Positions 205 through 28,169 of a DNA stretch of 63,568 bases are shown piece after piece. Within the stretch, counting starts at the first letter, position 1. Each line of letters starts with the position of its first letter. Origin of the DNA: an uncultured Bacteroidales bacterium (GTDB lineage Bacteria; Bacteroidota; Bacteroidia; Bacteroidales; Bacteroidaceae); NCBI GenBank assembly GCA_902782245.1, contig CACZMI010000014.1:1-63568 (forward strand), given 5' to 3'. Below the pieces are notes generated by a model. That model saw only the letters and a list, made by a program, of their open reading frames with translations. It was not told the origin of the DNA and did not search any database. The position numbers were made by a program, and so were the translations under genes.

Positions 205-2358
205 ATGAAAAAAGATCATCTCTTTCAACTGGCCGAGAGTTACATTTCCCAGACGGGAATATCGGTCTTTCTGACCGGCAGGGCCGGAACCGGAAAAACA
301 ACATTCCTAAAGTACATTGTTGAGAATACGCCCAAGCGCTGCGTAGTGCTTGCGCCAACCGGTGTGGCCGCCATCAATGCGGGCGGCGTTACGATTCATT
401 CATTCTTTCAGTTGCCGTTGTGCCCATATCTTCCTGATGTTGAGGAACTGGTCACGGAGTATCAGTTGCCCGAGGCAAGGCGACAGTTGCGCAAGGAGAA
501 AGTCAAGATTATCAAGACGCTGGACCTGCTAATCATCGATGAAATCTCGATGGTAAGGGCCGATCTGCTTGATGCGGTTGACTCCGTAATGCGCCGATAT
601 CGGCACAACAACAAACCTTTTGGCGGGGTGCAGCTTCTCATGATAGGCGATGCTCACCAGCTCCCGCCCGTAGTCATCGAGCAGGATGAGCCCTGGCTCA
701 AGAAGGTCTACCAGTCACCTTTCTTCTTCCACTCCAAGGTGATGCGGCAGCTCAAATACGTTACAATAGAACTGCAAACGGTTTACCGTCAATCAGATAC
801 ATCATTCCTTGATATACTCAACAGCATCCGTGACGGAGTGATGGACAACGCTACCTACCGCATGCTCAACAGCCGCCTGGATCCGCGTTTCAACCCCGAT
901 GACAGCTTTGCGGCATCGGGCCAACGATGGATCCGCCTTACCACTCACAACCGTCAGGCCGACAGCATCAACCAGGAGAAAATGGAGGCTCTGAAGACCC
1001 GCCTCTACACATTCTACGCAGAGGTTGAGGGAAATTTCCCGGAAAACACGCTCCCCGCTGAAAAGGTTCTCCAACTCAAGGAGGGCGCACAGGTCATGTT
1101 CCTGCGCAACGACTCCCGCGAGGGCCGGTACTACAACGGAAAGATTGCCACCGTAACCTCCATAGATTATGATGACGGCATCATTGTGACCGATGAAAAC
1201 GGCGATGAAATCAATGTTCCTATTGAAAAATGGGAGAATATCCAGTATGAGATAGACAAAGACACCAAGGAGATTGTGCCCAAGGTAGAAGGTACTTTCT
1301 CCCAGTACCCGCTGCGGGCCGCCTGGGCAGTTACCATTCATAAGAGCCAGGGCCTTACTTTTGACCGTGTGATCATTGATGCGGCATCGGCCTTCAGTTT
1401 CGGTCAGGTCTATGTGGCACTGTCACGATGCCGCACACTTGAAGGCATAGTACTGAGCAGTCCCATATCACAGTCGTGCCTGTTCAACAACAGCGATGTA
1501 TCCGGATTCCATGAGCAGTTCCTGCCGGTATCCGAAATGGAAAGGCAACTGGAAGCATCGCGGGCGGAGTATTTCATGAACATTCTCAAAGAGTGTTTTA
1601 CATTCACTGAACTTGAAAGACTTACCGGTTGGGCCGGCGGAATATTCAACAACCATCTCAAGAATACCTATCCGGAGCAGACCGCCAGGATGGAGGAGAA
1701 CCGTCGCAGAGTCAGAGATATTGAGAAAGTTGCCGAGACTTTCCGCCGTGAGTTGGACCGGATCGGCCTTACCGACAAGGCTCATCTTGATGAGAGGGTT
1801 AGTAAAGCTGCCGGGTATTTCCTTCCCATTCTGATTGAGGCGGCATCGGACATTACCCCTGTTTTGTCCGTTTCCATCGACAATAAAGATGTAAAGAAAT
1901 CTCTTACCGAGGCATCGGGCGAACTCCTGCCCGAACTCTCCATGCATCTGCAAAGTATGAGGGAGATACTTGAGAACGGTTTCACAATCGAGTCATATCT
2001 CCGGATCAGGAACGATGCGCTGTTGGCACCCGTGTCCAAGACATCGCTCAAAAAGGTAAAGGAACCCAAGCCCGTAAAGGAGAAGGTTGTCAAGACCAAG
2101 CCCACCATCCAGGAAATCTACTCCGATAACCGCCACCCCGAACTTATCCAACCCCTGATAGACTGGCGAACCGAGCAATACATATCCCAGAACATCCGCG
2201 CCTACTGGGTACTCACCCAACGCACCCTCCTGGAAATAGCCGATACCTGCCCGTCGACCAAAGAGGAACTCCTGGCAGTCAATGGTTTCGGCCCCGCAAA
2301 ATGGAAGCAGTACGGTGAGGAAATCCTGGAACTGATAAAACTCCACCGTAAGGATTGA
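205..2358 (+). CDS. Pif1-like SF1 DNA helicase with C-terminal HRDC domain
   Basis: This is a 717-residue ATP-dependent helicase of the Pif1/RecD-like superfamily 1, probably acting on replication or repair intermediates in the cytoplasm. Walker A GRAGTGKTT is at residues 25-33, Walker B LLIIDEIS is near 108-115, and a late helicase motif with the sequence AVTIHKSQGLTFDRV is near 373-387. The final 70 or so residues (PELIQPLIDWRTEQ onward, ending in a helix-hairpin VNGFGPAKW) match an HRDC nucleic-acid-binding domain. The reading frame is open from 148, but the ATG at 205 begins the conserved MKKDHLFQLAESYI segment and lies downstream of the -7 box, so it is preferred. The combination of AAA/Pif1 and HRDC is common in Bacteroidetes. 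The precise substrate cannot be read from sequence. Confidence 0.88.
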   Translation: MKKDHLFQLAESYISQTGISVFLTGRAGTGKTTFLKYIVENTPKRCVVLAPTGVAAINAGGVTIHSFFQLPLCPYLPDVEELVTEYQLPEARRQLRKEKVKIIKTLDLLIIDEISMVRADLLDAVDSVMRRYRHNNKPFGGVQLLMIGDAHQLPPVVIEQDEPWLKKVYQSPFFFHSKVMRQLKYVTIELQTVYRQSDTSFLDILNSIRDGVMDNATYRMLNSRLDPRFNPDDSFAASGQRWIRLTTHNRQADSINQEKMEALKTRLYTFYAEVEGNFPENTLPAEKVLQLKEGAQVMFLRNDSREGRYYNGKIATVTSIDYDDGIIVTDENGDEINVPIEKWENIQYEIDKDTKEIVPKVEGTFSQYPLRAAWAVTIHKSQGLTFDRVIIDAASAFSFGQVYVALSRCRTLEGIVLSSPISQSCLFNNSDVSGFHEQFLPVSEMERQLEASRAEYFMNILKECFTFTELERLTGWAGGIFNNHLKNTYPEQTARMEENRRRVRDIEKVAETFRRELDRIGLTDKAHLDERVSKAAGYFLPILIEAASDITPVLSVSIDNKDVKKSLTEASGELLPELSMHLQSMREILENGFTIESYLRIRNDALLAPVSKTSLKKVKEPKPVKEKVVKTKPTIQEIYSDNRHPELIQPLIDWRTEQYISQNIRAYWVLTQRTLLEIADTCPSTKEELLAVNGFGPAKWKQYGEEILELIKLHRKD

Positions 2359-2412
2359 AAGCGGTTTTGCTAATTCCTTGTTTGTATTTAATTCTTAATA
2401 CCTTTTCCTATC

Positions 2413-3549
2413 ATGAAAAAAATGATTCATTGTTGCTTTACTTCCCATCAGGAGGTGATGTTCCGAAGTCCGCAGGATGTGGGTTTCTTCCTTAACTTGC
2501 TTGCACTAACTTCATGGAAGTACGGGGTTGACATTTTTGCAGACACAGAGATGTCAAACCACGTTCATTTATTGCTGTTTTCATCGGACAAAACCGAGAG
2601 CAGGCTGTCTGTAGGACCATATTCAAAGACCGTTATTAAGCCCGGTTTTGACCGGGATGGCAGCATCCTATACTCCGAATCCAACCAGTTGTCAGATTTT
2701 ATTACTGCTTTAAGAAAGCGGTATACATGGTATTTCACTCAAAAATACCAACGTGACTGCGGCGGAAGAATGGGTGAGAAATACTACTTCTCACTGATTA
2801 TTGAGGGTAATTATCACATGATTTCGGCCTGCAGTTATGTACTCAGGAACGGCCTTCATCATGGAGTTTCAGGCACTTCATTCATGTATCCCTATTCATC
2901 CATCAATGATATGTTCATTCCCGAATTGGGAAAAACGGAGCGCCCATACCAGGGAAACCGTAACCCCGATGAATACCACAAAAACAGGTCCGGTCACTGG
3001 ATAAAGTCATTATCTTCCGGGAACAAATCCACCCATGGATTGGTCTTTCCCGACGGTTATGCTCCCATCACCAGCAGGAATGTGATGAAACTCTATCTTC
3101 CAAGGTATTCCGAATGGCCCGATGACTGGGTAATGTCACCTTCAGGAGTATTCCTGCGGCCTTGTTTCGAGCAGTTGAGGCAAACTGAACTGCTGTTTGT
3201 TTCACCTGGTGCTTTTGAATACAATATGTTCCGCAAGACCGATGAAAAATGGCTTGAAGAGCAGGACCAGGACAGGAACGGCAAACCCGCCATTGGCATT
3301 TCTGACATAGAACCCATCCACAATGAGGATGCCGTCAAATCCTATCTGTACAACGAACGCGCTGCGACATTCCGTAACTGTCGGAACGACATAGACTTGT
3401 GCGGTATTATTGACCGATGCATACTCCCTGAATTCAAATCTCCATCCATATATCAGCTCAGTCGCGACAAAAGGGAATCCATCAAAAAAATACTAATGAA
3501 TGATTTCCATGTGTCCGACAGTCAGGCTTCCCGCTGCCTGTGGCTGTAA
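2413..3549 (+). CDS. Y1/REP-associated transposase-like HUH protein
   Basis: This 378-residue protein resembles the IS200/REP-associated tyrosine transposase (RAYT, Y1_Tnp) fold. The N-terminal block CCFTSHQEVMFRS is followed by the HUH metal-binding motif NHVHLLL (His50 and His52), and a candidate catalytic tyrosine is Tyr142 in SYVLRNGLHHG. Such enzymes nick and rejoin single-stranded DNA at hairpins (family knowledge). At 378 residues it is about twice the length of a typical RAYT; the C-terminal 200 residues are unassigned and could be a DNA-binding extension. There are no IS-like terminal repeats, so it is probably a single-copy domesticated transposase. The flanks hold several inverted repeats (3616-3670, 3700-3745), as expected of a REP-type system. 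It lies 54 nt after the helicase and may be cotranscribed with it. Confidence 0.65.
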   Translation: MKKMIHCCFTSHQEVMFRSPQDVGFFLNLLALTSWKYGVDIFADTEMSNHVHLLLFSSDKTESRLSVGPYSKTVIKPGFDRDGSILYSESNQLSDFITALRKRYTWYFTQKYQRDCGGRMGEKYYFSLIIEGNYHMISACSYVLRNGLHHGVSGTSFMYPYSSINDMFIPELGKTERPYQGNRNPDEYHKNRSGHWIKSLSSGNKSTHGLVFPDGYAPITSRNVMKLYLPRYSEWPDDWVMSPSGVFLRPCFEQLRQTELLFVSPGAFEYNMFRKTDEKWLEEQDQDRNGKPAIGISDIEPIHNEDAVKSYLYNERAATFRNCRNDIDLCGIIDRCILPEFKSPSIYQLSRDKRESIKKILMNDFHVSDSQASRCLWL

Positions 3550-3868: not shown

Positions 3869-4786
3869 ATGATTTATCAGGACTTCAAGCCTTGTCCCAT
3901 TTGCGGAGCATCAGGACAGATTCCCTATGCAAACTGCACCGACTTTACGGTAAGCAAAGAGTCATACACTCTTATGCGTTGCCCGTCATGCGGTGTTGTC
4001 TACACGCTGGATCCCCCATCGGAAGAGGAGATGGGGCGATATGACAAGGTCAACCTGAAACTCAAACTGGGCGACTCCCCTTCCGGACTTATCGGCCGTC
4101 TTTACTATCATGTGCGTAACCGTATGCTCCGCAAGAAGGTCAGGATTGTCGAGTCTCAGGCATACCGCACAGGAGGTTCGCTGCTCAACTACGGCGCCAA
4201 GACTGGATTTTTCTCCCACAGGATGGAAAAACGCGGATGGAAAGTGACATCGGTAGAGAAATACCACGAGGAGAGGCTTTTCTCTCTGGAGATGTTCCAT
4301 CACCGTATGATAGATGTCCCCGAGATGGATGCGCTGCATGCAGGCACATTTGATGTCATAACCATGTGGCACGTGTTTGAACATTGCCATCATCCCAACC
4401 AACTGCTGGACCGGTTTTACGAGTTGCTGAGACCGGGAGGGATTCTGATTATGGCCTGCCCTAACATCTGTTCGACCGATGCCATGTACTACGGACCCTA
4501 CTGGGCAGCATACGATGTACCCAGGCATCTGTGGCATTTCAGTCCAAATTCGATCAGCACATTAGCCCACAGGCACGGATTTACCCTGATGCATCATGAG
4601 AAAATGCCGTTTGACAGTTTCTACATATCAATACTGTCGGAGAAGCAGCTCAGACACAGGATGGCGTTCCTTCGCGGTATGATAAAAGGGTTCCAGTCAT
4701 GGAAAATCTCACTGACCAAACGGAGCCGAAGCAGTTCGCTGGTATATGTTTTCAGAAAAAGACAAGATACGGAATACAATGACTAA
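3869..4786 (+). CDS. Class I SAM-dependent methyltransferase with N-terminal zinc ribbon
   Basis: This 305-residue protein starts with two CxxC pairs (Cys9/Cys12 and Cys38/Cys41), a small zinc-ribbon-like element. A Rossmann methyltransferase domain follows, with the glycine-poor motif I LLNYGAKTGFFSHRM, the acidic SVEK, and post-motif WHVFEHCHHPNQLLDRF, as in Methyltransf_23/11 families. The substrate is unknown; relatives modify small molecules, lipids or glycans. The next gene, ftsX, starts inside its last codons, so the two are translationally coupled. The placement immediately before ftsX and uppP hints at an envelope role, but that is inference. Confidence 0.82.
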   Translation: MIYQDFKPCPICGASGQIPYANCTDFTVSKESYTLMRCPSCGVVYTLDPPSEEEMGRYDKVNLKLKLGDSPSGLIGRLYYHVRNRMLRKKVRIVESQAYRTGGSLLNYGAKTGFFSHRMEKRGWKVTSVEKYHEERLFSLEMFHHRMIDVPEMDALHAGTFDVITMWHVFEHCHHPNQLLDRFYELLRPGGILIMACPNICSTDAMYYGPYWAAYDVPRHLWHFSPNSISTLAHRHGFTLMHHEKMPFDSFYISILSEKQLRHRMAFLRGMIKGFQSWKISLTKRSRSSSLVYVFRKRQDTEYND

Positions 4787-5651
4787 GCAAAAGAAAAAGA
4801 GAAAGATAGACCTGCTGTTCATTACGGCTTGCATCAGCACGTCTCTGGTATTGCTGCTCATAGGAATAGTAGCGCTGCTGTTACTTACCGCGAGTGACCT
4901 GTCACGCCATCTCAAACAGGAGATGACGGTTGAGGTCATCCTTAAGGAGAGCATAACCGATGCCCAATTCTCGACACTGCGCCGCAGTATCGAGGCATCA
5001 CCCTATTGCGCTGTCTGCCAGTACATTTCAAAGGACGACGCGCTCAGGGACATGACCAAAGCCATGGGTACCGATCCGTCACAGTTCCTGGAGTACAACC
5101 CCTTCTACGCATCACTCAACATCCGTTTGGAGGCCGATTATGCCTGCAACGACAGCCTTAAGGTGATAGAAAAGAAGATCGCCTCTTATGAGGGAGTGCG
5201 TGAGGTGACATGGCAGAAAGACCTGCTGGATATCATCAACAGCAATATCCGCAAGGTTGCCGGACTGCTGCTGGTCCTGGCCATGATACTCTCTCTGGTA
5301 TCGTTCACACTGATAAACAACACCATCAAACTCACCATCTACGCCCAGCGTTTTGTGCTTTACTCCATGAAACTGGTGGGAGCCAAGTGGTCTTTCATTC
5401 GCAAACCGTTCATCAGCCGCAACCTGTGGATAGGATTTGCATCGGCCGTACTTACATGCATCATCATCTGGTACGGTCTCAAGATTGGCCTCAAATATGA
5501 GCCCTGGCTTATTATGCTGGCCGAACCCAGAATCATAATCCCCGTATTTGCCGTGGTAACATTTATCGGACTGCTCATTACAGGTGTTTGCGCCCTGCAC
5601 TCCGTAAACCGTTTCCTGCGTATGAAATCGGGTGAACTCCATTACGTCTAA
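4779..5651 (+). CDS. ftsX: Cell division permease FtsX
   Basis: This 290-residue inner-membrane protein has the FtsX layout. There is a first membrane segment near residues 15-40, then an extracytoplasmic domain of about 130 residues (MTVEVILKESITDAQFSTLR to about residue 155). Three further membrane segments are found in LLLVLAMILSLVSFTLINN, AVLTCIIIWYG and IIIPVFAVVTFIGLLITGV. FtsX works with the ATPase FtsE to control peptidoglycan hydrolases at the division site; ftsE is not in this window, as is usual for Bacteroidetes. The frame is open from 4746, but the ATG at 4779 (MTKQKKKRKI) fits the family and overlaps the preceding stop by 8 nt. It belongs to the ftsX–DUF3098–uppP–truB–queA gene run. 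Confidence 0.9.
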   Translation: MTKQKKKRKIDLLFITACISTSLVLLLIGIVALLLLTASDLSRHLKQEMTVEVILKESITDAQFSTLRRSIEASPYCAVCQYISKDDALRDMTKAMGTDPSQFLEYNPFYASLNIRLEADYACNDSLKVIEKKIASYEGVREVTWQKDLLDIINSNIRKVAGLLLVLAMILSLVSFTLINNTIKLTIYAQRFVLYSMKLVGAKWSFIRKPFISRNLWIGFASAVLTCIIIWYGLKIGLKYEPWLIMLAEPRIIIPVFAVVTFIGLLITGVCALHSVNRFLRMKSGELHYV

Positions 5652-5668
5652 CTTTAATTGTTCTCAAT

Positions 5669-23030: not shown

Positions 23031-23038
23031 ACCCATCC

Positions 23039-23175
23039 CCTAACCTTAGGGAGTCAGAATATAGGTAGAGCCATTTCTCTCCCTAAGGTGAGCCTGAAAT
23101 ACACTTTTCCCCGAGCCACCACCTAACCTTAGGGAGTCAGAACACAGGTAGAGCCATTTCTCTCCCTAAGGTGAG
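23039..23175. repeat. Two 54-bp direct repeats, each an 11-bp hairpin
   Basis: Copies at 23039-23092 and 23122-23175 differ at only two positions. Each has ACCTTAGGGAG and its exact complement CTCCCTAAGGT separated by 25 nt that are also conserved. They lie between the DPP III terminator and the blaI promoter. This is not a CRISPR array: there are only two units and the inter-arm sequence is itself repeated. Confidence 0.85.
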
Positions 23176-23189
23176 TCGCGTAAAAAAAA

Positions 23190-23231
23190 CATCTAAAAGT
23201 TTTGCGGTTACATCTAATTTTTTTAGATTTG
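23190..23231 (+). promoter_or_regulatory. blaI promoter with probable BlaI operator
   Basis: TTTG at 23201-23204 and TAGATTTG at 23224-23231 are 19 nt apart, a textbook Bacteroidetes promoter. The dyad ATCTAA (23212-23217), five T, TTAGAT (23223-23228) overlaps the -7 box. A further ATCTAA half-site is at about 23191-23196. A dyad over the promoter of a BlaI-family gene suggests autorepression. Confidence 0.7.
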
Positions 23232-23259: not shown

Positions 23260-23616
23260 ATGAGACAGTTGACCAAGAAAGAAAAAGAGATAATGGAGTT
23301 CTTCTGGAACAGGGGACCCATGTTTATAAGGGAGCTTCAGGGATGCTATGAAAAGGAGCCTAACTTCAGTACCCTTTCAACTCAGGTCCATACTCTCCAG
23401 GTGGACGGTTTCCTGGACCGGGAGGCATTCGGCAGCAACTACCGCTACTTTCCGGTTGTAAGTGCCCGTGAATACGGAAACAGCGGAATACACGGTCTTA
23501 TTGACCAATATATGGACAGTTCTTACTCTAATGTTGTGATGGGATTCGTCAAGAACGAGAAGCTCTCAGTTGACGACCTTAAACGTATTATTGACAAGAT
23601 AGAGAAAGGACAATGA
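23260..23616 (+). CDS. BlaI/MecI-family transcriptional repressor
   Basis: This 118-residue winged-helix protein matches BlaI/MecI/CopY: LTKKEKEIMEFFWNRGPMFIREL, STLSTQVHTLQVDGFLDRE (recognition helix and wing), and a C-terminal dimerisation region. In beta-lactam systems the repressor is inactivated when the partner BlaR1/MecR1 metalloprotease is triggered. Here the partner gene overlaps it by 4 nt (ATGA) and is an M56 protein with a leucine-rich-repeat sensor. The probable operator lies in its own promoter. A cleavage site for the partner cannot be assigned by eye. Confidence 0.9.
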   Translation: MRQLTKKEKEIMEFFWNRGPMFIRELQGCYEKEPNFSTLSTQVHTLQVDGFLDREAFGSNYRYFPVVSAREYGNSGIHGLIDQYMDSSYSNVVMGFVKNEKLSVDDLKRIIDKIEKGQ

Positions 23617-26600
23617 CTGCATTCCTTATATATATGCTGAAAGTGGCCATTCTATCGGCCGTTTTCATAACCCTGTACCATCTGCTGCTCAGTAGAGAGA
23701 CTTTTCACAGGGCTAACAGGATAATACTGGTTTCATCGCTGGTTCTCTCTTATATTCTGCCGTTCATAGTCATAACAAGGCATAAGGAGGGAGCACCCGT
23801 AACAAGAATTGAAACCTTACAACGCGAACCTTCTCAGGAACCGGCAACGGCTCCTTACCAGCCGGTAATAACAAGTGGCAGCGTTTACTCATCGGCCCCT
23901 GACGGGGAGAACGCAGAGCCTGTTGTATCACAAAACCTCTCTCAAGTGATTGAGGTAACGGTGCAGGAGAACAAGCCCGAACCCGTGGTTGACACCCGCC
24001 AGCCCATACAGATCAACTGGTGGAAAGTACTGGCTGCGGTTTATCTGCTGGGATTGGCAATTGCACTGGTATACAGACTGTTCTGTACCGCTAAAGTGAT
24101 TGGGATAATAAGAAAGGGCGATGTCGTAGAAAAGAACAATGACTTCACACTGGTTCAGAGCGGACAGCATATCCACCCGTTCAGCTGGATGAGATACATA
24201 GTCCTTCCCAAGAACGGCAAGGCTGCCGGGCAGACCCCCATATTTGACCATGAAAAGGCTCATCTGGCACATCATCACTCGCTCGAACTGCTCTGGACCG
24301 ACATCCTGTCCGCCCTGCAGTGGTTCAACCCCGCACTGATGCTGTTCCGCCGTGACCTTTACTCCATTCATGAGTTCCAGGCCGATGCCGACGTACTGCG
24401 TAAAGGCTACGACCGCAAGCAGTACCAGTATCTCCTGCTGGACTGTGCCACCGACAAGACGGAACTCAGAGCCGTAAATACATTCAGGAAAAGTACTTTA
24501 GAAGGAAGAATTGATATGATTAACCGTAAACAATCAACAGGATCAAGTATCCTGAAGGCAGCCTACATTCCGGTGCTGCTTCTGCTCTCCTTGGGCGCAT
24601 TTGCAAAAACGGTTTACGACAAGGGTATTGCCGAAACCATCGAGATTGACAACTATGTCCGTATAGACGGGCTATGGTACAAATTCAAGGGTAATCAGGT
24701 TCGCGTGGTAAGCCGCAAGACCGATCACGAATATCCCGAAGATATCGTGATACCCGATACCATCATCTACAAGAATGTAAAGTATCCTGTCACGTCAATC
24801 GGATACAGGGCATTCCAATATGATGAAAAGATTAAGTCGGTGACCATTCCGTCAACCGTCAGGGAGATTGAGGGAGGATCTTTCTACAATTGCACCGGAC
24901 TTGAGAAGGTTGTAATACCATCATCCGTCAAGAGCATAGGGAACAATGCTTTCTATGGTTGCCGCAGTCTGAAATCGGTTTCCATACCCGCCGCAGTAAA
25001 AAAGATCGGGGACCGTGCCTTTACGGGAACCTGTCTTGAATCTGTTTCGGTTCAGGAAGGTAACAGGTTCTATGACAGCCGCCAGAACTGTAACGCAATC
25101 ATCGAGACATCATCCAACACCCTTTTGTACGGATCGGCATCGACCGTAATACCGTCCACGGTCACTACCATCGGCCAGGATGCTTTTTCGGATAACAAAA
25201 AACTGACATCCATTGACATACCTGAAAGCGTAACTGTAATCGGTATGAGCGCTTTCAAGGGATGCAGCGGGCTCAAATCGATAGTTATTCCCGGAACGGT
25301 TCAGAGGCTTGAAAACAGTTGCTTTGAAAACTCGGGAATCAAAAACCTGACAATTAACGGAAACCTTGAAACGATGACATATGCTTTTGTGGGATGCAAC
25401 TCATTGGAGACCGTGAATTATGGTCCCAAAGCGACAAAGATAGAATTGGTTTCAAGATGTCCCAATCTGAAACATCTGTTCATTCCGGCAACAGTCAGAC
25501 AGATAGAGCGTCTAGGGCATAACTGTGAACTGGAACTTGAGTCCATCACGGTTCAGGAGGGAAATCCGGTATATGACAGCCGGGGCGGTTGCAATGCCAT
25601 TATCCATACCGAAACCAACGGTCTGATTCTGGGTTGCGCCAATACGGTCATTCCCGACGACATAAGATATATATCGGATTATGCCTTTACCGGAGGTCAT
25701 ATCAAGGAGTTGTACATTCCGGCATCGGTCAGACAAATCAGCACTGCTATTTTCCAGGATTACTTTGATGCACTGTCTGTTTTCTCTCCCGATTATCTCA
25801 GGGACCTGAAAAGCATTGTCATCGACCCTGCCAACAAGTACTATGACAGCCGTGGCGGTTGCAATGCCATTATCCAGACGTCAACCGATATGTTGCTGAT
25901 TGCCTGCCAGACGACCACAATTCCGGGAACTGTCAAAACCATCGCTGCAAATGCATTCCTTAATCAGAATGGTTTAACGGAACTGACAATCCCCGACGGG
26001 GTCAGGACAATAACGGATGGAGCATTCTCATACTGCCGGAATCTGGAAAAGATTACAATAGGCGCAGGAGTAACTCATGTTTCTCCATTTGTTTTCAGTG
26101 GATGCAACAACATTTCGGAGATAAAAGTGAGCCCCGGGAACAAGACCTATGACAGCCGTAATGACTGCAACGCCGTCATTGAAACCGCAACCGGGACACT
26201 GGTATTGGGAGCCGAAAAAACCGTAATCCCTGACGGGGTGACAACAATAGGTAAAAACGCATTCAATTCAAATAAGAAAATAGCCTCAATAAAACTTCCG
26301 CCATCGGTTAAGGCCATTGAAGAATATGCTTTTGGAGGTTGCAATAATCTTGAGGAGATAAACCTGGAGAACGTAACCAGGAAAGGAGATAGAGCACTTG
26401 ACGGAACTGCACTCGGTCGATACATATACGCCGACAGCATCAACGGATATATGCGTTTCAGATTGCACGGAAAAGAAGCCGTCCTTAGCTATGTATGGGA
26501 TAACGTCCCAGCCAAAGTCTCTATACCTGAAACCTTCGATTACAAGGGGAAAACATATACGGTTGTCGAGATAGGCGACGGAGCATTCAGTTCAGATAAC

Positions 26601-28169
26601 ATAGAATCCGTCACCATACCGGGAACCGTCAGGGTTATAGGAAAGGAGGCTTTCAATGAGTGCTCACGCCTTAAGAACGTCACTCTTTCCAATGGTCTTA
26701 AAACCATCCAGGATGAAGCATTTGCCTACTGCCGCAGTCTTGAAAACATCAAACTGCCTGCAACGCTTGAACATATCGGAAGAGCCGCATTCACCCGCAG
26801 CGGACTCAAGTCACTTGCCATTCCGGCTTCGGTAACAACGATGGGAAGGAACATAACCCTTGACTGCGGCAACCTTACATCTCTTTCCGTCAATCCCGCC
26901 AACAAGGTGTTTGACAGCCGTAAGAACTGCAATGCCATCATAAAGACCGATATCAACGTCCTTCTGGAGGGTTGCTGCAAAACCAGGATACCTAAGGGCG
27001 TCGTTGCCATCGGACCATACGCGTTTGCAGGGGCAACCGGACTCCGCAAGATAAAAATACCATCATCCGTACTTTATATCTTTGACTGTGCGTTTGCTTT
27101 CTGTCCGTTGGAGAAGGTTGAGATTCCGGCATCGGTAGTACTCCTGCATAACAATCCTTTCCTGGGTTGCGGAAAGATAGGCGCCATAACTGTCAATAAA
27201 GGTAACAGGAACTATTCAAGCCCATCGGGCAGCAATGCCATAATCTCAAACGGAAACGACATTCGGGTTATCCATGATTCGGGAATTGGAGGTATATTGA
27301 ACTATCTTGGATTAGCCAATTATATGTCACGCAGGCCCCAGACACTGATATTGGGATGCCGTAACACCGTCATTCCGCAGTCATGTTCCATAATAGGCAG
27401 CAACTCTTTCGCATTTTGCGAGGGACTTGAAAGGTTAGACTTTCCCGAAAATGTGGAGGTTGTGGAAGCATCGGCTTTTGACCATTGTCCAGACCTGACA
27501 GAGATACATATCCCTGCCTCAGTCAAGGATTTTTACAGGTCATATTATTGCCCTGAACTGGCAACGATAACCGTAGCCCCGGGAAATCGCGTCTTTGACA
27601 GCCGCGACGGATGCAACGCTGTAATAAAGAAAGACGGAGCTGTCCTCATTATGGGCTGCAGGAATACCGTAATCCCCAGTACTGTCTGGATGATCGAGTC
27701 CAACGCATTTGACCATGTCCGCGGATTGAAAGAGATAACAATACCCAACTCTGTAGAGCGGATATGTTATGACGCTTTCCGGGATTGTGCCGATCTGGAA
27801 TCGGTATCTATTCCGTCTTCTGTCAGATTTATCGGAGGATCCTCATGGGAAAAATATGGTGATCTGAGCGTTAGTAAAATGCGCAACCCGTTCACGAACT
27901 GTACCTCACTGAAGCGTATTACGGTTGACGGTGACAATCCCGTATATGACAGCCGTGAAGACTGCAATGCCGTTATTATCACATCATTGACAACCATGCT
28001 TGCAGGCTGTTCCGGCAGTTTCGAGCCTGAAAGCATAAACAACGTACATTACTCCGCCTACGAGACTCTCCAGGACTATAACTTGAAAACTGACTATCTC
28101 AGCACCGGATATATCTTTGCTGACGGAGATTTGAGTCATAGCGTTATTGATGATGATACTGATGACTGA
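23613..28169 (+). CDS. M56 (BlaR1/MecR1-like) metalloprotease fused to a BspA-like LRR_5 ectodomain
   Basis: This is a 1518-residue membrane sensor. Hydrophobic segments occur at about residues 1-25, 34-55, 130-155 and 310-330. Between the last two is the M56 zinc site HEKAH (residues 213-217) with a likely third ligand in HEFQADAD (from residue 253), so the protease appears intact. After the last membrane segment, from about residue 346, the remaining 1170 residues are LRR_5/BspA-like repeats of the pattern VTSIGYRAF…LKSVTIPSTV, punctuated about ten times by YDSRxxCNAII modules followed by TVIP. The usual penicillin-binding sensor is absent. The ectodomain starts DNYVRIDGLWYKFKG, matching the secreted protein at 29725. 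The predicted role is signal-triggered cleavage of the adjacent BlaI repressor. Confidence 0.88.
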   Translation: MTAFLIYMLKVAILSAVFITLYHLLLSRETFHRANRIILVSSLVLSYILPFIVITRHKEGAPVTRIETLQREPSQEPATAPYQPVITSGSVYSSAPDGENAEPVVSQNLSQVIEVTVQENKPEPVVDTRQPIQINWWKVLAAVYLLGLAIALVYRLFCTAKVIGIIRKGDVVEKNNDFTLVQSGQHIHPFSWMRYIVLPKNGKAAGQTPIFDHEKAHLAHHHSLELLWTDILSALQWFNPALMLFRRDLYSIHEFQADADVLRKGYDRKQYQYLLLDCATDKTELRAVNTFRKSTLEGRIDMINRKQSTGSSILKAAYIPVLLLLSLGAFAKTVYDKGIAETIEIDNYVRIDGLWYKFKGNQVRVVSRKTDHEYPEDIVIPDTIIYKNVKYPVTSIGYRAFQYDEKIKSVTIPSTVREIEGGSFYNCTGLEKVVIPSSVKSIGNNAFYGCRSLKSVSIPAAVKKIGDRAFTGTCLESVSVQEGNRFYDSRQNCNAIIETSSNTLLYGSASTVIPSTVTTIGQDAFSDNKKLTSIDIPESVTVIGMSAFKGCSGLKSIVIPGTVQRLENSCFENSGIKNLTINGNLETMTYAFVGCNSLETVNYGPKATKIELVSRCPNLKHLFIPATVRQIERLGHNCELELESITVQEGNPVYDSRGGCNAIIHTETNGLILGCANTVIPDDIRYISDYAFTGGHIKELYIPASVRQISTAIFQDYFDALSVFSPDYLRDLKSIVIDPANKYYDSRGGCNAIIQTSTDMLLIACQTTTIPGTVKTIAANAFLNQNGLTELTIPDGVRTITDGAFSYCRNLEKITIGAGVTHVSPFVFSGCNNISEIKVSPGNKTYDSRNDCNAVIETATGTLVLGAEKTVIPDGVTTIGKNAFNSNKKIASIKLPPSVKAIEEYAFGGCNNLEEINLENVTRKGDRALDGTALGRYIYADSINGYMRFRLHGKEAVLSYVWDNVPAKVSIPETFDYKGKTYTVVEIGDGAFSSDNIESVTIPGTVRVIGKEAFNECSRLKNVTLSNGLKTIQDEAFAYCRSLENIKLPATLEHIGRAAFTRSGLKSLAIPASVTTMGRNITLDCGNLTSLSVNPANKVFDSRKNCNAIIKTDINVLLEGCCKTRIPKGVVAIGPYAFAGATGLRKIKIPSSVLYIFDCAFAFCPLEKVEIPASVVLLHNNPFLGCGKIGAITVNKGNRNYSSPSGSNAIISNGNDIRVIHDSGIGGILNYLGLANYMSRRPQTLILGCRNTVIPQSCSIIGSNSFAFCEGLERLDFPENVEVVEASAFDHCPDLTEIHIPASVKDFYRSYYCPELATITVAPGNRVFDSRDGCNAVIKKDGAVLIMGCRNTVIPSTVWMIESNAFDHVRGLKEITIPNSVERICYDAFRDCADLESVSIPSSVRFIGGSSWEKYGDLSVSKMRNPFTNCTSLKRITVDGDNPVYDSREDCNAVIITSLTTMLAGCSGSFEPESINNVHYSAYETLQDYNLKTDYLSTGYIFADGDLSHSVIDDDTDD

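Follow-up and report, generated by a model that had tools for sequence, protein, structure and literature searches.

A putative BlaI/M56 receptor-protease operon with an exchangeable LRR_5 array in an uncultured Bacteroidales bacterium

The window analysed here is the whole of contig C14 (63,568 nt; CACZMI010000014.1), one of 98 contigs in a 2.51 Mb draft genome (85.71% complete) of an uncultured Bacteroidales bacterium. It carries a pair of overlapping genes, P0003 and P0001, of which the first encodes a BlaI-type repressor and the second an M56 metalloprotease core that runs on, in the same protein, into a long array of LRR_5 repeats. It is judged probable, though by no means certain, that the two form a self-repressing BlaI/M56 receptor-protease operon, with an exchangeable array of LRR_5 repeats as its periplasmic part. 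This reading draws on features taken from the sequence, namely the architecture, the catalytic and P1' residues, the promoter dyad, the gene neighbourhood, the tail switches among relatives and the existence of arrays without a core. To our knowledge, M56/BlaI systems are known almost solely as antibiotic sensors, and we know of no ligand for M56 proteins that lack a penicillin-binding domain.

P0001 is a single open frame with no internal stop, and both of its halves, as well as P0003, were assigned by Pfam (Table 1). The 3' end of blaI overlaps the start of P0001 by 4 nt (ATGA). An earlier note on this DNA, made from its letters alone, had described an intact M56 core (HEKAH and HEFQAD) between membrane segments, some 1170 residues of LRR_5 repeats in the same protein and a BlaI gene with this overlap; the Pfam matches and the four helices predicted from hydropathy bear out all three descriptions.

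Table 1. Features of the BlaI/M56-LRR operon and of the neighbouring free array gene (positions in the window)
Feature	Position	Strand	Basis or remark
Promoter-like block	23200-23231	+	TTTTG at 23200-23204 and TAGATTTG at 23224-23231, 19 nt apart
Operator-like perfect dyad, ATCTAA-N5-TTAGAT	23212-23228	none	Between the -33-like and -7-like elements
BlaI-type repressor P0003, 118 aa	23260-23616	+	Penicillinase_R (PF03965), 78.4 bits, cut-off 22.6
Predicted BlaI scissile bond G95/F96	23545-23547 (F96 codon)	+	Alignment with MecI
M56-LRR gene P0001, 1518 aa	23613-28169	+	Single open frame
M56 metalloprotease core of P0001, residues 1-338	23613-24626	+	Peptidase_M56 (PF05569), 49.0 bits, curated cut-off 31; BlaR1 profile match; hydropathy
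HEKAH zinc motif, residues 213-217	24249-24263	+	
HEFQAD, residues 253-258	24369-24386	+	Supplies E254 and D258, the ExxxD part of the gluzincin signature
Predicted self-cleavage bond T290/F291	24480-24485	+	Alignment with S. aureus BlaR1
Helix 4 and signal-peptidase-like exit AFA-K (A331/K332)	24549-24608	+	
LRR_5 (BspA-type) array of P0001, residues 341-1518, ~1170 residues	24633-28166	+	LRR_5 (PF13306), 516.1 bits, cut-off 27.7, eight stretches, same protein as the M56 match
P0002, free homologue of the array, 1138 aa	29725-33141	+	LRR_5, 469.5 bits; signal-peptide-like start, no M56 core

The combination of M56 and LRR_5 beside BlaI, which the earlier note had proposed looking for in relatives, recurs in nine of 37 genomes sampled from the genus, the window's included, each time as an orthologue in the same neighbourhood; an M56 match as such (E 0.001 or better) was found in 35 of the 37. 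The cores of the orthologues are 65-100% identical and their open frames are 1490-1530 aa long, and BlaI lies directly upstream at each of the other eight loci (86-95% identical). Across the deeper orthologues, BLAST identity is 49-69% for the array, 62-79% for the core and 86-95% for BlaI. The ATGA overlap is present in eight of the nine; in the ninth (G020) the script-called start is an upstream TTG. The gene pep665, putatively M49-like to judge by a HECLGH motif, is found upstream of the operon in 9/9 (in G020 only the longer record L146 shows it, some 1.6 kb away from blaI), while metK stands at the opposite end in eight, the contig of G020 ending before it. As metK is inverted in G014, it is unreliable as an output of the system. 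Values of dN/dS were low in both halves: array dN/dS was 0.17-0.30 in six pairs (0.22 and 0.24 in two pairs with G028), and core dN/dS was 0.21-0.24 in three pairs, a fourth (G003/G029) having no core difference at all. That an assembly or base-calling error fused two genes might be suspected of a single contig from a draft genome; this was rejected and is hardly credible, since the same fused frame occurs in eight further genomes and dN/dS is well below 1 in both halves of those pairs that differ.

Residues of the core were counted in an alignment of 80 M56 proteins that contains the window's own, and those of the repressor across 87 BlaI proteins. H213, E214, E254, D258, Y271 and R299 are invariant in 80/80 and H217 is retained in 79/80; the HExxH and ExxxD zinc site is located between membrane helices of P0001. 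An M56 profile matched the BlaR1 chains 8exs and 8exp with E-values of 5.2e-6 and 8.9e-6, respectively. The zinc ligands of S. aureus BlaR1 have been described as H201, H205 and E242, with self-cleavage at S283/F284 (PMC9834060). F291, the proposed equivalent of F284, is phenylalanine in 64 and leucine in 16 of the 80 proteins. P0003 aligns with MecI across residues 4-112, the C-terminal cleavage region included, and the bond at which MecI and BlaI are cleaved (N101/F102) falls on G95/F96 of P0003; the F96 position is phenylalanine in 33/87 and leucine in 54/87 BlaI proteins. Since the catalytic and P1' residues (F96, F291) are retained, the M56/BlaI cleavage chemistry is probably kept. BlaI-type proteolytic derepression, as had been suggested for this locus, would thus be the most likely signalling step, with phenylalanine kept at F96 of P0003.

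Hydropathy analysis of P0001 marked four helices ahead of the array, at approximately residues 3-21, 37-55, 139-157 and 313-331. Four helices before the array were found in all nine orthologues, that of G026 being marked also at 670-688 with the same cut-off. Lysine and arginine follow a consistent pattern in 9/9: three to four residues in the first loop (12 residues long), 6-11% of the second, 13-15% of the loop with the protease and zero to two within the 15 residues after helix 4. Together, hydropathy and charge predict an inner-membrane protein with its N-terminus out, the protease in the cytoplasm and the array, i.e. the C-terminus, out; the same topology has been described for S. aureus BlaR1 (PMC9834060). 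A cytoplasmic array, which would have undermined the earlier proposal of a receptor, was rejected on these grounds and on natural variants (described below) in which the array is led by a signal-peptide-like start or by helix 4 alone; the array is predicted on the trans side. Array-only genes and P0002 suggest export by an ordinary N-terminal signal, which supports a periplasmic placement.

As the host is Gram-negative and the helix that anchors the array is predicted to lie in the inner membrane, the array should be periplasmic unless shed or exported further. This bears on the suggestion in the earlier note that the array, being BspA-like, could serve in contact or adhesion signalling. LRR_5 tails do occur in BspA-type surface proteins, and by a rough estimate the length of the array may let it reach across much of the periplasm. 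Sensing at the cell surface by an adhesin-like tail nonetheless seems quite improbable, given the predicted inner-membrane anchor, the fact that Pfam gave P0001 no domain for outer-membrane or type IX sorting and a match to the NCBIfam adhesin HupY/LrrG of only 243.9 bits against a cut-off of 1250.

The blaI promoter region contains TTTTG and TAGATTTG, which resemble the Bacteroidota -33/-7 promoter, with the dyad placed between them. The promoter block is largely conserved upstream of blaI in all nine orthologous regions, and sequence farther upstream varies by group; the dyad is present at this promoter in 9/9, exactly in seven and with one mismatch in two. Elsewhere no excess of it was detected. 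Within the window, one match at two or fewer mismatches compares with 2.41 expected, i.e. no more than chance, and across the nine genomes (one mismatch or fewer, both strands) there were 83 matches against 80 for a reversed-pattern control. No other dyad string was seen to recur in all nine genomes, gene contexts not being compared one by one. With promoter conservation in 9/9 and no excess elsewhere, autoregulation is the only output that can be supported, and the only demonstrable target of the dyad would be its own operon. Thus the ATCTAA dyad to which the earlier note had pointed is present and conserved, and carriers of it beyond the operon are not demonstrable. Upstream of the other seven blaI/M56 pairs in the same genome, a script found dyads of different sequence in four cases and none in three.

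In a conventional one-protein sensor, the array would sense, BlaI would be cleaved and remote genes with diverged operators would respond. BlaR1 provides the precedent, and operators may be more degenerate than the pattern used here; three of the nine genomes (G014, G033 and G034) contain a second exact dyad directly ahead of an open frame that has 499 codons or more and is truncated where the retrieved sequence ends, and some one-mismatch strings recur in two or three of the nine. Yet that recurring exact site is absent from six of the nine genomes and the dyad counts equal those of the reversed control, so a remote regulon is regarded as rather unlikely.

The wider family was studied through 82 M56 frames read from 78 loci, a sample biased towards the query's nearest relatives. 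BlaI is encoded within 150 nt of 78 of these frames, and an LRR match follows the core in 19, or in 20 once the window's gene is added. When the LRR label was mapped on a tree of 80 cores, eight changes were required, at least four of them forced by the starred branches, compared with a mean of 18 when labels were shuffled. Tails were then compared for eleven core pairs picked from this tree. Nine of the pairs have 81-94% nucleotide identity over their first 301-323 codons and unrelated tails thereafter (for example, L164/L147, 94.4% over 933 nt, and L161/L171a, 93.2% over 915 nt); the other two, L162/L159 and L149/L155, share their tail. The switch point corresponds to the end or exit of helix 4. 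A Pfam scan of 71 M56 relatives, from which the window's protein and its eight orthologues were left out on account of size, found TonB_C (32), ExbD (13), LRR_5 (11), Lcl_C (6) and Big_2 (5), with single hits to CarboxypepD_reg and UPF0047 and one protein also matching Penicillinase_R. The premise that the sensor of such proteins is a penicillin-binding domain is therefore too narrow. The best reading of these data is that BlaI/M56 represents a constant chassis with exchangeable exported tails, P0001 appearing to be one member of a wider pattern.

At the joint itself, an AxA or VxA motif is found at the helix-4 exit of the window's protein and all eight orthologues (9/9), and in most M56 relatives the motif there is LxA or LxS, which is weaker. 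Residue 331 is small in 80/80 M56 proteins (A 61, S 16, T 3), and position -3 is mostly L (63), with A in nine and V in three. A broader count of [AVG]xA anywhere in the 17-residue stretch at the helix-4 exit (26/80, against 4/80 at helix 2) was set aside, as it overstates the signal by counting intrahelical matches. In BlaR1 of S. aureus and S. epidermidis, signal peptidase has been described as cutting in the linker beyond the last helix, whereby the sensor is shed (PMC9834060). Release of the tail is plausible in the nine orthologues.

Not every genome of the sample retains the whole module. In two of the 37 (G007 and G028), the array occupies the same locus, but both BlaI and a functional protease are missing. 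The array gene of G007, a genome 97% complete, opens with a signal-peptide-like start and lies 35 nt past pep665. In G028 metK and pep665 flank an inverted array, at the head of which 49 residues of M56 are left, helix 4 among them. Some of the blaI promoter region also survives there, with approximately the first 24 nt of blaI (78% identity, 90 nt); the join is near M56 codon 297, and the dyad is not recognisable. The G028 array shares 96% identity with the arrays of G029 and G003. In ten genomes pep665 and metK are adjacent without the module or relics of it at E 0.001, one gene being turned in two of them (G019 and G004); the remaining 16 of the 37 were not judged, owing to contig ends, other genes in between or the lack of a metK match. 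A tree built from MetK and pep665 of 34 genomes shows the locus states intermingled, with pairings such as G003 with G028 (0.956), G014 with G004 (1.000) and G026 with G027 (0.914), and gain and loss are not distinguishable from it.

The core-less arrays bring forward another explanation, that the array is cargo: helix 4 would act as an internal signal peptide, signal peptidase would release a soluble LRR protein and M56/BlaI would mainly meter its amount. This would account for array genes that persist without BlaI at the same locus in G007 and G028, and is in keeping with the free homologue P0002, the dN/dS of 0.22-0.24 for the G028 array and the AxA or VxA joint of all nine orthologues. However, the strict site occurs in only two of the 71 other M56 proteins, the event in G028 looks recent, so that its low dN/dS may predate it, and nine genomes keep an intact catalytic core for which a mere export precursor would have no need. 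On balance, the cargo explanation is held to be doubtful.

Under the receptor-protease reading, which is preferred here, the following mechanism is proposed. By occupying the dyad in its own promoter, between the -33-like element and the -7-like one, BlaI would keep the operon low. P0001 would reside in the inner membrane, N-terminus out, with its protease in the cytoplasm and its array in the periplasm, where a partner might occupy or strain the array; the M56 core would then cleave BlaI at G95/F96, leading to derepression. The output supported by the sequence would consist of more BlaI and more array protein, nothing further. The M56 half would act as the constant chassis and the tail as a cassette attached at the helix-4 exit, at which signal peptidase may also free it as a soluble protein. 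In this scheme the topology is a prediction, and we infer the ligand, repression, BlaI cleavage and release. A generalisation to the genus can be offered only tentatively: BlaI/M56 may be a universal signalling chassis whose tails are traded at the helix-4 exit, this exit being an internal signal peptide, with the tail membrane-held, shed or secreted; receptor and product would be two states of one protein and the chassis would meter its own tail. Related cores with unrelated tails make two questions testable, namely which signal is perceived and whether the tail is set free. If tails are cargo, a textbook receptor would turn out to be a self-metering secretion precursor.

Several observations weigh against the preferred reading. 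The core tree has long branches and was built by a quick method, and the eleven pairs used for the tail comparison share members. With regard to the joint, leucine is found at -3 in 63 of the 80 M56 proteins, the strict [AVG]xA motif in just 11, nine of which are the window's protein and its orthologues, and a small residue also at position 326 in 77, so that the constancy of residue 331 alone is weak evidence. D210 of BlaR1, described as near strictly conserved (PMC9834060), maps by counting from HExxH onto H222, a histidine that is invariant in the 80 M56 proteins. No regulon outside the operon is demonstrable from the dyad pattern. Furthermore, the module is dispensable, as ten genomes are without it at the locus.

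In comparison with the staphylococcal systems BlaR1/BlaI and MecR1/MecI, P0001 and P0003 share the four-helix M56 core, HExxH and ExxxD, a repressor in the operon, phenylalanine at both predicted cleavage sites and an extracytoplasmic C-terminal domain (here predicted). The exit past helix 4 is signal-peptidase-like, as in BlaR1 (PMC9834060). Unlike BlaR1 and MecR1, P0001 has no penicillin-binding (transpeptidase-like) domain among its Pfam hits, a 1170-residue LRR_5 array standing in its place; moreover, its host is Gram-negative and its tail is predicted to be periplasmic. The TonB_C-tailed M56 proteins of other Bacteroidales have the same core, but their tail is a TonB C-terminal domain rather than LRR_5. 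BspA-like proteins such as Tannerella BspA and HupY/LrrG are secreted or surface proteins that also carry LRR_5 repeats, whereas the array of P0001 hangs from an inner-membrane protease. Paralogues in the same genus with FISUMP-like tails (in the window's own genome on C27) share the chassis, the upstream BlaI and the joint at helix 4; their tail differs in being unrelated in sequence and in being followed nearby by genes for exported FISUMP-like proteins.

With up to two candidates scored per genome, P0001 as a query matched 19 of 399 genomes of the family at E <=1e-60, all belonging to this genus (one of 30 genera), and one of 393 genomes of the order at 1e-45, which was its own. A profile of the core and first repeats (A4; 546 positions, up to three candidates scored per genome) matched 200 of the 393 Bacteroidales genomes at 1e-35. 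Among the A4 matches listed, only the window's own gene reaches the end of the repeats, the others ending by position 414 of 546. In these searches the M56-LRR form was seen in this genus only, L156 aside, and the M56 core was widespread. L156 is a 5-kb contig labelled Ruminococcus that carries a BlaI/M56-LRR gene of this type, and is perhaps misbinned. Literature searches, limited to open-access papers, brought up no paper on M56-LRR fusions.

P0002 is 50.5% identical to P0001 over 1201 columns, the alignment beginning at residue 314 of P0001. Such a neighbour beside the operon was not seen at the other eight orthologous loci, this genome being the only one among the nine to have it. That P0002 is a fresh copy of the adjacent array was ruled out, because in the tree it falls together with the G026 array (support 0.999). 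As a general rule, the idea that tails are copies of exported neighbours was not adopted either: 10 of 87 M56 genes have such a neighbour, against a shuffled mean of 4.6 and maximum of 11, these ten being the FISUMP-type loci, L148 and the window. At L011, L160, L165, L166 and L171, M56 genes with FISUMP-like tails are followed 23 or 68 nt on by exported homologues of the tail.

Some further variants of the chassis were encountered. At L087:2453-6031 (probably the same as L157:6689-10267), one 1192-aa frame gives matches to BlaI as well as to the M56 core and represents a repressor-protease fusion, and at L009 1836-4429 (the C1 locus of the window's own genome) the order is reversed, M56 preceding BlaI. 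Between G003 and G029, four 300-nt bins covering BlaI and the M56 core (L077 at approximately 2100-3300 and the matching L078) are 100% identical, and the flanking bins are 88-99% identical, as if the chassis had recently been exchanged. The array gene of G028 (L138 5418-9408) has an inverted repeat before its start (5523-5562 / 5622-5661), with a related copy at approximately 3905-3951. In the window, two 60-nt direct repeats (93% alike) and inverted repeats are located at 23033-23175, between pep665 and the blaI promoter.

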